DNA from: Salinirussus salinus
GTDB taxonomy: Archaea > Halobacteriota > Halobacteria > Halobacteriales > Haloarculaceae
Reading direction: 5' to 3'
Length of the DNA stretch: 64,000 nt
Assembly (NCBI RefSeq): GCF_009831455.1
Contig: NZ_WOWO01000002.1
Location: 868,001-932,000, forward strand
Part shown: in pieces, positions 53,678 to 59,948 of the stretch
Layout: each line of letters begins with the position of its first letter
Position numbering within the stretch: position 1 is the first letter of the stretch
The notes under the pieces: model-generated
Seen by the model: only the letters and a program-made list of their open reading frames with translations
Databases searched by the model: none
Told to the model about the DNA's origin: nothing
Translations under genes and position numbers: made by a program

Positions 53678-54768
53678 CGCTCGAGGCCGACATCGCGGCG
53701 ACGTTCTCGGCCGACGGCGCGGAGCCCTTCGTCGTCGACGCCGCCTTCGAGGTCGAACGCGGCGAGACGCTCACGATACTCGGGCCGAGCGGCAGCGGCA
53801 AAACGCTGCTGCTCGAGTCCGTCGCCGGGTTTCACGCCCACGACGGACGCGTCGCGCTCGACGGCCGACCCCTCAGCGACCGCCCCCCGGAGCAGCGGGA
53901 CTTCGGCTTCGTCTTCCAGGACTACGCGCTCTTTCCCCACGCGACCGTCTCCGAGAACGTCGCCTTCGGCCAGCGGTACCTCGGGCCGTCGTGGTGGGAG
54001 CGGGCCAGGGAGCTGGCGACCGGCGACGACAGGCGCTCGCGGCTGCGGGCCCTGGTCCGCGACGACGGGCGGAGTCGGCGGGAGCGACTCCAGCATCTGG
54101 CGCGACTCCAGCGCGAGGGGCCGGACGCGCCGGACCCGGCGCGGTTGCTCGAGGAGTTCGGCATCGACGACCTCGCGGACCGGTACCCGCCGACGCTCTC
54201 GGGGGGCGAGCGCCAGCGGGTGGCGCTCGCGCGCGCGCTGGCGGTCGAACCGGAGGTCCTCCTGCTGGACGAGCCCCTCTCCTCGCTGGATGTCCCGACC
54301 AGACAGTCGCTCCGGCAGGACCTGCAGGACGTCCTCGCGGATGTGACCGCGGTCTACGTCACCCACAACCGGACGACCGCGCGCGCACTCTCCGACCGCA
54401 TCGTCGTCATGAACGACGGCCGGGTCGTCCAGTCGGGGTCGCCGGAGGCGGTGTTCGAACGCCCGGCCTCGCCGATGGTCGCCCGCTTCACGGGCGCGAA
54501 CTGCATCCCGCTCGCGGACGTTCCCGGTCTCCGGGACCGCCTCGACGTCACCGCGGAGTACGTCGCTATCCGGCCGGAGGCGGTAGGTCTCGCCGACGAC
54601 GGGGACCTCCGCGGGGCCGTCGAACGGGTCGTCCGCGAGGGCGCTTCCTCACGGGTGACCGTCGACGCTGGAGAGGCGCGCATCGAGACACTCACCGAAA
54701 GTCCGCCGGCCATCGGGGCCGACGTGGCGTTGCAGTTCCCCCGCGACCGGCTGCACCCGGTCAGCTGA
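53674..54768 (+). CDS. wtpC: Tungstate/molybdate ABC transporter ATPase (WtpC-like)
   Basis: A 364-residue ATPase. Walker A GPSGSGKT, Q-loop FVFQDYALFPH, signature LSGGERQR, Walker B VLLLDEPLSSLD and H-loop VTHN are all intact. Between the Q-loop and signature there is a charged insertion of about 35 residues, longer than usual. The C-terminus has a TOBE-like domain that often senses the oxyanion. It starts at GTG 53674; its 3' end overlaps the convergent JAMM gene by 8 bp. Confidence 0.9.
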   Translation: MTLEADIAATFSADGAEPFVVDAAFEVERGETLTILGPSGSGKTLLLESVAGFHAHDGRVALDGRPLSDRPPEQRDFGFVFQDYALFPHATVSENVAFGQRYLGPSWWERARELATGDDRRSRLRALVRDDGRSRRERLQHLARLQREGPDAPDPARLLEEFGIDDLADRYPPTLSGGERQRVALARALAVEPEVLLLDEPLSSLDVPTRQSLRQDLQDVLADVTAVYVTHNRTTARALSDRIVVMNDGRVVQSGSPEAVFERPASPMVARFTGANCIPLADVPGLRDRLDVTAEYVAIRPEAVGLADDGDLRGAVERVVREGASSRVTVDAGEARIETLTESPPAIGADVALQFPRDRLHPVS

Positions 54769-55168
54769 GCGCAACCGCCTCCCGCGCGAAGCGTTCGCCC
54801 GTCCAGCGCCACGACCCGACGTATGGCCACTCCCCGTCGAGGACGACGATGAGGTACGAGCGCTCGGTCCAGGTCGCCCGCCGCCGGTCCGTGGGGCTCG
54901 GCTCCGCCGGCCCGTGCGGGTGCGAGTGATAGAAGCCGACGACCTCCTCGCCCGCTGCCTCCACCTCCTCCATCAGCGCGAGCTGTTCGGCGGGGTCGAT
55001 GCGGTACTCGGTGCGGGGGTCGGCGGCGACGTTCTCCGCCCGGCGGAGCGTCCGCGCGTGGCTCGTCGCGCCGCGCTCGCCGCCGAGGACGCCACACACC
55101 TCCGCCGGTGCGCCCTCGCGTGCGTGGTCGATGGCGGCGTCGTAGACCTCGCGGGTCAGCCGGAGCAT
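54761..55168 (-). CDS. JAMM/MPN+ metalloprotease (HJAMM/desampylase-like)
   Basis: A 135-residue single MPN+ domain. The full zinc motif is present: Glu23 (PAEVCG), HSH (H81, H83), Ser91 and Asp94 in HSHPHGPAEPSPTD. Archaeal JAMM1 of Haloferax cleaves ubiquitin-like SAMPs from targets and matures precursors. Here it is head-to-head with a SAMP/MoaD-like gene across 87 bp, and the latter has a C-terminal tail that could be its substrate. It is catalytically complete by sequence. Confidence 0.88.
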   Translation of the reverse strand: MLRLTREVYDAAIDHAREGAPAEVCGVLGGERGATSHARTLRRAENVAADPRTEYRIDPAEQLALMEEVEAAGEEVVGFYHSHPHGPAEPSPTDRRRATWTERSYLIVVLDGEWPYVGSWRWTGERFAREAVALS

Positions 55169-55255
55169 ACCGGGGCTTCGGTCCAGGAGTCCAAGAGGGT
55201 ACTCCCGGCCGGCCGCGGCGACGCCTTTTATGACATCCGGCCCCCACCCCGGCAC

Positions 55256-55582
55256 ATGGAGATCGAGATGCGGTTTTTCGCCAACTTCCGGGATGCAGTC
55301 GGCCAGAAGACCGTCACGCGGGAGTTCGACGGGGAGACCGTCGGTGACCTCCTGCAGGACCTCGCCGCGGAGTACCCCGGGATGGACCTGTTCGAGGACG
55401 ACGGCAGCCTCCGGGACTTTCTCACGATCATGAAAGGCGGCAAGGATATCGCCCACCAGGAGGGACTGGACACCCCACTCGAGGACGGGGACACCGTCAG
55501 CGTCTTCCCGCCGGTGGCTGGCGGGAGCGGGCGCGAGGACCAGAGCAAAACGGGACTGTCGTCCCGTGCTCAGCAGCAGTAG
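55256..55582 (+). CDS. Ubiquitin-like SAMP/MoaD-family protein with a C-terminal extension
   Basis: A 108-residue beta-grasp protein: MEIEMRFFANFRDAVG, GDLLQDLAAEYPGM, and the terminal LEDGDTVSVFPPVAGG. Gly-Gly is at residues 89-90, but an 18-residue tail (SGREDQSKTGLSSRAQQQ) follows before the stop. SAMP1 and MoaD act only with a free C-terminal Gly-Gly (isopeptide or thiocarboxylate). A TATA-like ctttta (55225-55230) lies 28 nt upstream. The 3' end overlaps the convergent gene at 55570-56001. Confidence 0.8.
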   Translation: MEIEMRFFANFRDAVGQKTVTREFDGETVGDLLQDLAAEYPGMDLFEDDGSLRDFLTIMKGGKDIAHQEGLDTPLEDGDTVSVFPPVAGGSGREDQSKTGLSSRAQQQ

Positions 55583-56001
55583 ATGAACGGGTAGATCATC
55601 GCGACGCGGTCGCCGTCCTCCAGCTCCGTGTCGAGCCCGTCGAGGTGCTCGTTGAACGTGCCGTTGACCGCGACGCGGGCGTACACCCGTGTCTGCTCGC
55701 CTTCGGGGTTCTTCGCGTAGTTCTCCCCCGGCAGCGACTCCAGCTCCGGCGCCCACCCCTCAGTCGTCGCCTCCTCCTCGGTCTCCGCGATGAGCATCTC
55801 CCCGACGTCGTAGTCCTCGAAAAACGCCTCCAGGAAGTCCCGGAGGGTGCCCCCCTCGAAGGTGTACTCGACCCGCGGCTCGCCGACCGCCGTCCGGACG
55901 TGACCGGTACACCGCGCCTCGACTGTCGTCCGGACCGGTGTCCCCGGGTCGGCCTCGCTCGCCCCGGCGTCGCGTGCCTCCTGCATGTGCGTGTTGCTCA
56001 T
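55570..56001 (-). CDS. MoaD/ThiS-like beta-grasp protein ending in Cys-Cys
   Basis: A 143-residue protein. The core EYTFEGGTLRDFLEAFFEDY, RVYARVAVNGTFN and LEDGDRVAMIYPFIYCC follow the MoaD fold pattern, including the loop VAVNG. The expected C-terminal Gly-Gly is replaced by Cys-Cys just before the stop (tgc tgc tga). An N-terminal region of about 50 residues precedes it. It overlaps the SAMP-like gene end-to-end. Its function is unknown, but its place beside AOR and Mo/W genes suggests cofactor work. Confidence 0.78.
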   Translation of the reverse strand: MSNTHMQEARDAGASEADPGTPVRTTVEARCTGHVRTAVGEPRVEYTFEGGTLRDFLEAFFEDYDVGEMLIAETEEEATTEGWAPELESLPGENYAKNPEGEQTRVYARVAVNGTFNEHLDGLDTELEDGDRVAMIYPFIYCC

Positions 56002-56147
56002 ACGACACACTACCGGCACGGGCGACAAGTCCGTTTGCCGGAACATGTTCGGCCAGTCAGACCGACCGGGCCGGGACCGAGTGAGCGTGGGTGCTCACGG
56101 GCCGGCACTGCCGGACGATTTATGGAGCGAGCACGCCGAGAGCCGGT

Positions 56148-56534
56148 GTGGACGAACTCGAACTGACGATCCCGGAGGGTATCGTCGACTCGCTGCCGGC
56201 CGACAGCGACGACACGAAACAGGACATGGGCAAGGCCGTCGCCGGCTGGGAGCGCGAGCTCAACGCCGCCCTCACCGTCGAGAACGAGGACGAGGCAGTC
56301 AGCGCCGTCGTCGACATGATCGAGCACTTCCAGGAGCGGTGGGAGGCCTACGACGAGTTCGTGGTCGAACTGCGCGCCTGGGGGCAGTCGCCCATCTACG
56401 CGATGGCCTGGCGTGACCTCCACGCCGCGGTGCTCCAGCAGGTCTACGACCACGAGGACCTGGCCGACCGGATCGACCGCGAGCGCAACTTCCGGGCGGT
56501 CGACGACGGGATCCGCCCCGGCTCCGGCGGCTGA
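56148..56534 (+). CDS. Conserved-looking protein of unknown function in the Mo/W region
   Basis: A 128-residue acidic, helical protein: VDELELTIPEGIVDSLP, then AVVDMIEHFQERWEAYDEF and LHAAVLQQVYDHEDLADRIDRE. No motif is recognised. A leaderless start at GTG 56148 fits a TATA-like gatttatgg (56117-56125) 25-30 nt upstream. It ends GSGG, probably by chance. The position between beta-grasp genes and the AOR hints at a link with tungstoenzyme maturation. Confidence 0.6.
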   Translation: MDELELTIPEGIVDSLPADSDDTKQDMGKAVAGWERELNAALTVENEDEAVSAVVDMIEHFQERWEAYDEFVVELRAWGQSPIYAMAWRDLHAAVLQQVYDHEDLADRIDRERNFRAVDDGIRPGSGG

Positions 56535-56629: not shown

Positions 56630-56896
56630 ATGATCGAGCGCGAACGGAGTTACCGCGGGATCTCCGCCAGGGCCGCGGTCGGCTATCTCGAAAATCTCGG
56701 CGGCGAGCGGGTCGAGGACGGGATCGTCGAGGACAGGGACGGCAGCTGGCGGGCCTCCCTCTCCGAGGAGAAGGTAGACGTCGGACCCTCGCTGAAACTC
56801 ACCGAAGTGACGGTTGCCTTCGAAGGTGAAAGCGAGGACGCCCTGGACCGTCTGGTCGAGGAATTCTCCCAGAAGGCGATCCGTGCGGGCGGCTGA
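56630..56896 (+). CDS. Small protein of unknown function in the Mo/W region (88 aa)
   Basis: An 88-residue alpha/beta protein: GISARAAVGYLENLGGERV, SWRASLSEEKVDVGPSLKLTEV, FEGESEDALDRLVEEFSQKA. The alternation resembles a ferredoxin-like or DUF1952-like small fold, but I cannot confirm it. TATA-like ctttag (56598-56603) is 27-32 nt before the ATG. It is followed 19 bp later by another small gene, so both are likely co-transcribed. Confidence 0.6.
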   Translation: MIERERSYRGISARAAVGYLENLGGERVEDGIVEDRDGSWRASLSEEKVDVGPSLKLTEVTVAFEGESEDALDRLVEEFSQKAIRAGG

Positions 56897-57768: not shown

Positions 57769-59709
57769 TCAGTCGTCGGCGGGTGCCTGCGAGTCGCCGC
57801 CGGCGGAGACGCCGGTGCCGGGCCCGACCTCGATGCCGAGCTCGTCGAGCTTCTCGTCGGGGACGACACCGTCGACCCAGCCGCGGACCTCGTAGTACTC
57901 CGCTTTGAGCTGGTCGAGTTCGGCGAGCTGACCCTCGCTGCCGCCCTGGGCCGGGATGGCGTCATCGTGACCCTCGACGAAGCGGCCCGGCAGGTCGTCG
58001 TCGTCGCCGTCGAAGCCGGCGAGGTTGTTGTAGTACCGCTCGAGATTGTAGATGCGCTCGCCGGCCTCCAGCAGCTCCTCCTCGCTGACGTCGCGTCCGG
58101 TCATCCCGTTGTACTGGAGGACGTACTCCTCGATGCCCTCCGCGAAGGCGTTGAACTTGCAGATGTCGAAGGAGTCGGAGATGGCGTGCATGTCCTGGAA
58201 GGTGACACAGAGCTCACCCTTCCCCTCGGGCTCGTGGGGGTCGACCTGCTCGAGGATGCCCAGGATCTCCGCGGCTGGCGTGTACCCCCGGAGGTGACAG
58301 GCCCCGCGGTTCGAGGTGGCGTAGCCGATGGCCATCCCCTTCATGCAGCGGGGGTCGTAGGCGGCCATCGTCTGGCCCTTCACGGCGAGGGAGTTCTCCT
58401 CTGCGTCGAACTCCGCTTCGAGGTGGGCGGGGCCGCCGGCAAGGTGGTCGGCGAACTCCGTCTCCCGGTGGGCGATCCGGTCGAGCAGGTCGACCATCTC
58501 CGAGGAGTCGCCCCAGTCGAGACCGTCGCCCTCGACATCGTCGAACTTGCCCTGCTCGGTCATCTCCATGGCCATCGCCATGGTGTTGCCGGCGTCGATG
58601 GTGTCTATCCCGAGGTCGTTGCATCTGTCGACCATCAGGACGGAGTCGTCGAGGTCGGTGTGCGCGGAGTTGGGGCCGAGCGCCCAGGCCGACTCGTACT
58701 CGAAGGACTCCATCCGGACGTTCATCTCCTCGCCTTTGTGCATCGCCTGGACCTCGACCTCCTTCTTGCAGGCGACAGGACAGGAGTGACAGGTCGGTTC
58801 GTCGACCAGGATGTTCTCCCGGACGTGCTCCCCCGAGACCCGCTCGGCGTCGATGTCCACACCTTCGGAGTCGCTCATCGACCGCGTCGAGGAGTACCGG
58901 CCGTTCTTGGTCGGGAGGCCGTCCATCTCCTCGGTGACGTTCATCAGGACGTTGGTCCCGAACATCGAGAGCCCGCCCTCGTTGGGCGCGGTGACGTCCG
59001 ACTCCTGGATGAGCTGCATCGCCTGCTTGTGGCCCTCCCGGAAGGTCTCGGGGTCGGCGGGCTTTTGCATCTCCGTGGAGGACTTGACGACGACCGCCTT
59101 GAGGTTCTTCGACCCCATGACGGCGCCGGTCCCGCCCCGGCCGGAGGCGCGGTCGTCCTCGTTGACGATGCAGGCGTAGCGGACCTCGTTCTCCCCGCCG
59201 GGCCCGATGGCCATCGCCGAGAGGTTCTTGCCGTACTCGCCGCCGATCTCGTCTTCGATCTCCGCCATCGTGTCGTGGACGCCCCACCCCCAGAGGTGGG
59301 AGGCGTCCCGGAGTTCCACCTCGCCGTCCTCGACGTAGGCGTAGACCGGGTGCTCCGCTTTCCCTTCGAACAGCAGGCCGTCGAAGCCGGCCCACTTCAG
59401 CCGCGCGCCCGACCAGCCGCCGTGGTGGGAGTCGGTCACCTGCCCCTTGATCGGCGACTTGGTGCAGATGGCGATCCGGCCGCTCATGGTGACCTGCGTC
59501 CCCGTGAGCGGGCCGTTCATGAACGCGATGAGGTTGTCCGGCCCCAGCGGGTCCACGTCCGGCCCCTGGTCGAAGACGTACTTGACGCCGAGCCCGCGCG
59601 CACCGATGTACTTCTTCGCGTCCTCGTCGTCGACGCCCTCGTAGGCCACCTCACCCTCGCTGAGGTCTACCCGCGCCACGTGGTCGTGGAAGCCACCTAA
59701 GTCGGTCAT
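57769..59709 (-). CDS. aor: Tungsten-type aldehyde ferredoxin oxidoreductase
   Basis: A 646-residue AOR-family enzyme that oxidises aldehydes (or a related substrate) with ferredoxin as partner. The pterin-binding motif GRGGTGAVMGSKNLKA (about residues 190-205) and the Fe4S4 ligands C307, C310, C314 (CHSCPVAC) and C517 (DICKFNAF) are all present. The C-terminus has a Gly/Asp-rich acidic tail. A TATA-like gttaagt (about 59742-59748) lies about 35 nt before the ATG. Archaeal AORs carry a tungstopterin, so the nearby WtpABC and Moa genes make sense as supply. Confidence 0.93.
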   Translation of the reverse strand: MTDLGGFHDHVARVDLSEGEVAYEGVDDEDAKKYIGARGLGVKYVFDQGPDVDPLGPDNLIAFMNGPLTGTQVTMSGRIAICTKSPIKGQVTDSHHGGWSGARLKWAGFDGLLFEGKAEHPVYAYVEDGEVELRDASHLWGWGVHDTMAEIEDEIGGEYGKNLSAMAIGPGGENEVRYACIVNEDDRASGRGGTGAVMGSKNLKAVVVKSSTEMQKPADPETFREGHKQAMQLIQESDVTAPNEGGLSMFGTNVLMNVTEEMDGLPTKNGRYSSTRSMSDSEGVDIDAERVSGEHVRENILVDEPTCHSCPVACKKEVEVQAMHKGEEMNVRMESFEYESAWALGPNSAHTDLDDSVLMVDRCNDLGIDTIDAGNTMAMAMEMTEQGKFDDVEGDGLDWGDSSEMVDLLDRIAHRETEFADHLAGGPAHLEAEFDAEENSLAVKGQTMAAYDPRCMKGMAIGYATSNRGACHLRGYTPAAEILGILEQVDPHEPEGKGELCVTFQDMHAISDSFDICKFNAFAEGIEEYVLQYNGMTGRDVSEEELLEAGERIYNLERYYNNLAGFDGDDDDLPGRFVEGHDDAIPAQGGSEGQLAELDQLKAEYYEVRGWVDGVVPDEKLDELGIEVGPGTGVSAGGDSQAPADD

Positions 59710-59948
59710 GATAGTCCACTGCAAACCAGGGACCGCAACGCACTTAACGATTCGGTCCGGCTGCCGCCGAAACTGTCGTATTCCCGGGACAGAACGGTTG
59801 AGTTGCCGATATTTCGCTACAGACACAACGGTGGCTCACGGGTCGTCTCCGGGGGCACGGCCCGGCTGTGAGGGAGAGCAAACACCGTCGACCACGCTAG
59901 AACGACTCACAGAAGCGGTGTCGGGTTCGGACGGCAGCGGCCCCGCTG

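Follow-up and report, generated by a model that had tools for sequence, protein, structure and literature searches.

A SAMP3-like gene of Salinirussus salinus that runs past its Gly-Gly: a putative natural precursor for an HvJAMM1-type desampylase

Why should a SAMP/MoaD-type gene, whose product is expected to work through a C-terminal Gly-Gly, continue for 18 codons beyond it, head-to-head with a gene for a JAMM protease? The locus lies in a 64,000-nucleotide stretch of contig NZ_WOWO01000002.1 of the haloarchaeon Salinirussus salinus, referred to here as the window. A preliminary description of this DNA proposed a pro-ubiquitin-like switch, in which the protease trims the tail and controls when the carrier can be used. 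The comparisons presented below favor a simpler answer, which we consider probable: the gene would encode a natural pro-SAMP with a sequence-neutral tail, predicted to be cut after Gly90 by an HvJAMM1-type desampylase.

The SAMP/MoaD-type gene occupies positions 55256..55582 of the forward strand, from an ATG at 55256 to a TAG at 55580-55582, and encodes 108 residues. Its FPPVAGG motif ends at residue 90, and the 18-residue tail SGREDQSKTGLSSRAQQQ (codons 55526..55579, forward strand) leaves Gly89-Gly90 non-terminal in the gene product, as originally noted. We expect this tail to be removed, and it has no counterpart in same-genus or other relatives. In an AF2 model, residues 88-102 and 104-108 had a pLDDT below 50, and the tail appeared disordered, which is weak evidence given the six alignment rows and overall pLDDT of 69 behind the model. 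The protein belongs to the ThiS/MoaD beta-grasp family (Pfam ThiS PF02597, 4.9e-16), and its solved relatives are 2m19, 3po0 and 4hro. Among these, 2m19 is the nearest chain (9.3e-25), and the SAMP1 chain 3po0 is a far weaker match (7.1e-11). The 2m19 entry is annotated as molybdopterin converting factor subunit 1, and we take it to be Haloferax volcanii HVO_2177 (SAMP3). HVO_2177 was later given the name SAMP3 (PMC4500146). The window protein is best called SAMP3-like, nearer to the H. volcanii MoaD/SAMP3 than to SAMP1, although the NCBIfam SAMP1 model NF041918 also matches it (91.3 bits, cut-off 60). SAMP1 as its exact orthologue was ruled out, since 2m19 is closer and a separate SAMP1 gene is present in the genome.

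The divergent neighbor (54761..55168, reverse strand) encodes a JAMM/MPN+ desampylase of 135 residues. As stated in the preliminary description, this protease is complete: the motif HSHPHGPAEPSPTD at residues 81-94, together with a Glu at position 23, supplies the full catalytic set E23, H81, H83, S91 and D94. The E...HxH(x7)SxxD pattern and a score of 172.9 bits against the NCBIfam desampylase NF041370 (cut-off 130; Prok-JAB 4.1e-23) place it in the HvJAMM1 type. The genome has no other NF041370 gene and encodes one more distant JAMM protein besides. The two start codons are separated by 87 bp (55169..55255), and a TTTTAT located about 25 nt ahead of the SAMP ATG may represent a TATA box. The divergent pair is common to both members of the genus, and both are tailed. 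Among the 132 loci examined, no head-to-head SAMP/JAMM pair was observed outside this genus, which ruled it out as a general arrangement. In the other tailed relatives, the SAMP gene does not have a desampylase gene as its neighbor, so the link between tail and enzyme does not depend on adjacency.

The DNA of the tail also serves the gene that converges on it. A terminator-like hairpin of this convergent gene (computed fold; 7 bp stem followed by TTTT; 55550..55567, reverse strand) lies within the SAMP tail codons, and the end of the tail overlaps by 13 bp the 3' end of the gene itself, which encodes a ThiS-like protein ending in YPFIYCC (55570..56046, reverse strand; PF02597, 3.1e-6). Because it contains both elements, the tail DNA reads as intergenic in nature, as though translation had run on into an intergenic region and not into an evolved pro-peptide. 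A beta-grasp protein with a C-terminal CC was noted in 2010 as arCOG00539 (PMC2948915), and the convergent protein, assigned by description, is likely a member. The same gene also converges on the SAMP gene in several family relatives (e.g. L004, L006 and L032), and the Salinirussus MAG contig of the same genus (L031) lacks it at this position. In that contig (L002/L031), the SAMP core is 85-88% identical to the window copy (88% over residues 1-90), and the gene likewise runs past the Gly-Gly, into an unrelated five-residue tail (SPAEV) followed by a stop codon.

Across haloarchaea, such extensions were found to be frequent. Among orthologues in 169 genomes, 93 stop exactly at the Gly-Gly, and 76 run past VAGG; the earlier remark that most haloarchaeal SAMPs stop at this point holds in this orthologue group, but only barely. 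The extensions comprise 1-2 residues in 28 cases, 3-44 residues in 34, and an in-frame fusion to the downstream protein in 14. Some one-residue tails resemble an overlap between the stop codon and the next start (GCATGA, e.g. in L023), and a long tail, ASDAVVPNTDGQ, is found in the SAMP of Natronobiforma cellulositropha (L034). The Gly-Gly is retained in all 76 tailed orthologues, as [VLI/A]FPP[VI]AGG, and residues beyond a conserved Gly-Gly are what a pro-ubiquitin-like protein would display. A conserved regulatory pro-peptide is not what was observed, as the tail differs among relatives.

These observations bear on the regulated switch, in which the tail would be a dedicated mask and the adjoining JAMM its activator. 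The complete protease and the divergent, tailed pair shared by both genus members are in its favor. However, alignment of the haloarchaeal homologues, which the preliminary description had suggested as a check on conservation of the tail, revealed no tail shared in sequence or length, either within the genus or beyond it, and a tail conserved for regulation was rejected on this basis. In addition, 93 of the 169 orthologues have no tail to remove, the gene pair is confined to this genus, and read-through into the terminator region accounts for the tail DNA. The proposed control over the timing of carrier use was therefore not borne out, given a tail unconserved within the genus and a pair found in this genus only, and we regard the regulated switch as unlikely.

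A second explanation is that the tail inactivates this SAMP, the copy being in decay or non-conjugating while other copies do the work. The genome does encode two further SAMP/MoaD proteins that stop exactly at the Gly-Gly, a SAMP1-like protein (...FPPVSGG) and a third MoaD-like protein (...PAVYGG), with genes at C1:301523 and C2:1124876. Against inactivation, the core of the window protein is well conserved with respect to the same-genus copy, and no tailed relative has lost the Gly-Gly, a retention that decay does not predict. Inactivation would also leave unexplained the association with the desampylase described next, and it appears quite unlikely.

The distribution of NF041370 was compared with that of the tails. 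In the SAMP3 group, 74 of the 135 genomes that carry the desampylase had a tail or fusion, compared with 0 of the 31 that lack it (Fisher 1.1e-9); these counts cover genomes in which desampylase status was scored, the wider JAMM family being scored in less complete ones. The paralogue SAMP1 displayed the same pattern, with tails in 18 of 65 desampylase-bearing genomes vs 0 of 45 lacking the enzyme (Fisher 3.2e-5), although the positive sample was partly picked from genomes with tailed SAMP3 genes, so that 18/65 is inflated and not an unbiased rate. The desampylase-negative set spans three genera from the same family as S. salinus and also representatives of two further families. Because the genomes are related, the naive Fisher values overstate the association, and relatedness was allowed for on the gene trees by fitting models in which the two traits change either dependently or independently. 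Tail gain dependent on the desampylase was supported by likelihood-ratio p-values of 0.0019 (SAMP3 group) and 0.0018 (SAMP1), by simulations under independence at 0.05 and 0.02, respectively, and by the same simulations conditional on the total number of tails at 11/518 = 0.02 and 3/608 = 0.005. Each tree rests on one gene and about 90 residues, and the negative genomes fall in few clades, so the association is to be read at p of about 0.002-0.05 and not 1e-9. With these caveats of sample and tree, the extension was found to depend on the protease across genomes. Given these short, single-gene trees, we regard the association as well supported, though some doubt remains.

Two tailed genomes yielded no NF041370-type match: G040 (81% complete), with a 44-residue tail, and G048 (59% complete), with a fusion. 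Both are incomplete, and missing sequence could be the reason for these exceptions. All desampylase-negative genomes tested retain a second, more distant JAMM, so the absence of NF041370 does not equal the absence of all JAMM proteins. The same observation bears on a third explanation, in which a different enzyme trims the tail, be it the second JAMM, the proteasome or a carboxypeptidase, and the HvJAMM1 type is linked to the tails indirectly. The second JAMM is indeed available in this genome, as in all genomes tested. However, where it is the only JAMM, tails are lacking in both paralogues (0/31 and 0/45), and HvJAMM1 is the enzyme with the demonstrated activity (PMC4443979); we consider another trimmer quite unlikely. 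Finally, an assembly or sequencing error, suggested by a 2-base gap just after the Gly-Gly in the DNA alignment with the same-genus contig, as if a 2-base deletion had hidden the stop codon, is very improbable: that contig also has no stop at the Gly-Gly, which rejects an error or a stop-codon loss confined to one strain (the latter being one of the outcomes that the preliminary description had set as its refutation), and tails are widespread in complete genomes.

The residue that follows the Gly-Gly is itself constrained. Of 59 distinct tails with at least 3 residues, 56 begin with Gly, Ala, Ser, Thr or Cys. The same small residues make up 148 of 311 (48%) at tail positions 2-8 (p = 4e-13 for the difference), and single-base changes of stop codons would be expected to give a small residue in 26%. 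One of the three exceptions to this rule is G040, which is among the genomes in which no desampylase was found. This bias is most simply attributed to selection for a bond that can be cleaved. Part of it could be due to the way in which tails originate, e.g. from stop/start overlaps such as GCATGA, yet the bias holds for tails of at least 3 residues.

A control for drift of the stop codon is provided by the downstream neighbor (56630..56896, forward strand), which encodes a small protein of 88 residues ending in KAIRAGG. Its RAGG is terminal in 108 of 108 distinct relatives, so drift past a Gly-Gly is no general habit of genes in this neighborhood. In many genomes, this gene lies directly downstream of the SAMP gene or is fused to it. 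The protein matched no Pfam or NCBIfam family, and a sequence-profile search against solved structures returned nothing; its AF2 model (pLDDT 91), in contrast, had 1v8c as its top Foldseek match (TM 0.78), found by fold comparison alone. Since the first half of 1v8c is a VAGG-ending MoaD domain, the haloarchaeal fusions resemble an architecture that already exists in bacteria. A haloarchaeal protein with a TBP-like fold and a C-terminal GG was noted in 2010 as arCOG06308 (PMC2948915), and the RAGG protein, again assigned by description, is likely to be this one. With its exposed Gly-Gly, it is a candidate carrier or partner. A conserved ORF of 147 residues (56091-56534, forward strand), also found in L031 and without a Pfam family, separates the RAGG gene from the convergent gene. 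An aldehyde ferredoxin oxidoreductase (AOR) gene is located near the SAMP genes (57769-59826, reverse strand), and together with MoaE beyond the window, it is consistent with the known MoaD-AOR neighborhood.

We return to the natural pro-SAMP with a disposable tail. The stop codon at the Gly-Gly would have been lost, and translation would have continued into the convergent intergenic terminator, adding the tail. The ribosome would then yield a 108-residue form, which the HvJAMM1-type desampylase, here by chance the divergent neighbor, would cut after Gly90. The freed Gly-Gly could be activated by an E1 for thiocarboxylation and sulfur transfer to molybdopterin synthase, or for conjugation. Homologues of a ThiF-family E1 (7.4e-78) and of MoaE (6.0e-26) are encoded in the genome, the latter at G000:C2:933591-933896, about 1.6 kb past the end of the window. 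In haloarchaea that possess the desampylase, the position of the SAMP stop codon would drift because the enzyme can mend almost any extension, at times ending in fusion to the downstream neighbor; in those without it, the stop would be held exactly at the Gly-Gly. Comparison of about 170 related genomes thus suggests that the tails are for the most part dispensable and that they are tolerated only in the presence of a matching protease, encoded next door in the window. From the pro-ubiquitin-like switch first proposed, we retain a tail in need of trimming and the desampylase as its likely trimmer, in view of the association in two paralogues and the constrained residue after the Gly-Gly; the dedicated switch is not retained.

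A broader role for the enzyme is also conceivable, and we lean slightly towards it. The desampylase may be the general SAMP maturation protease of haloarchaea, comparable in that role to the enzymes by which ubiquitin precursors are matured in eukaryotes. It would license loss of the Gly-Gly stop, set the small-residue rule and permit the repeated fusions to the RAGG protein, and its loss would lock the stop at the Gly-Gly. The fusions, found in 14 genomes (L005, L013, L020, L028, L030, L090, L098, L109, L127, L137, L183, L194, L207 and L217), give tandem Gly-Gly precursors with linkers of varying length.

Few cases of JAMM processing of ubiquitin-like precursors are known, and for haloarchaeal SAMPs the case was an engineered fusion. 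Should our comparison hold, haloarchaea would often encode natural precursors of SAMPs, and one could predict from the occurrence of a single protease whether a SAMP gene may pass the Gly-Gly. The desampylase would have a second role, maturation besides deconjugation, which is directly testable, and the tails would provide a naturally occurring set of about 60 cleavage sites for defining its specificity. Annotation and tagging strategies that take SAMP genes to end at the Gly-Gly would call for caution. In the literature covered, which does not extend to the primary SAMP3 and HvJAMM1 papers (PMC3879616, PMC3558616), no statement was found that haloarchaeal SAMP genes often pass the Gly-Gly or need the desampylase to do so. 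The comparative pattern of tails and desampylase appears new; the kind of system, ubiquitin-like precursors trimmed by JAMM proteases, is already known.

Among the known systems, the closest are those of H. volcanii. SAMP3 (HVO_2177) and SAMP1 (HVO_2619) share with the window protein the beta-grasp family, the FPPVAGG end and an E1-dependent Gly-Gly, but they end at that point, whereas the window SAMP extends 18 residues more. HvJAMM1 belongs to the same family as the window JAMM (NF041370, above the curated cut-off), with the same expected cut after the Gly-Gly: in vitro, it cuts a linear SAMP1-MoaE fusion exactly at this position, and molybdopterin synthesis was restored in vivo only then (PMC4443979). 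That linear substrate was built by hand, whereas the putative substrate in the window is encoded in the genome, as in 74 of the 135 desampylase-bearing relatives. In Caldiarchaeum subterraneum, SAMP precursors are cleaved by CsJAMM, and pro-ubiquitin is paired with CsRpn11, likewise archaeal ubiquitin-like proteins with residues past the Gly-Gly that are processed by JAMM enzymes (PMC6043591). This organism belongs to another phylum, and its tail is treated as fixed, whereas the haloarchaeal tails are variable and come and go. In the bacterial QbsE/QbsD type, a sulfur carrier bears residues after its Gly-Gly that are removed by a JAMM protein; there the extension is a short, fixed dipeptide within a biosynthetic cluster, in contrast to the long, unconserved tails of haloarchaea. 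In the MoaD-related protein 1v8c of Thermus thermophilus, a MoaD half ending in FPPVAGG is followed by a second domain similar to the haloarchaeal RAGG protein. The SAMP fusions of 14 haloarchaea have this same architecture, whereas in the window both genes are separate.
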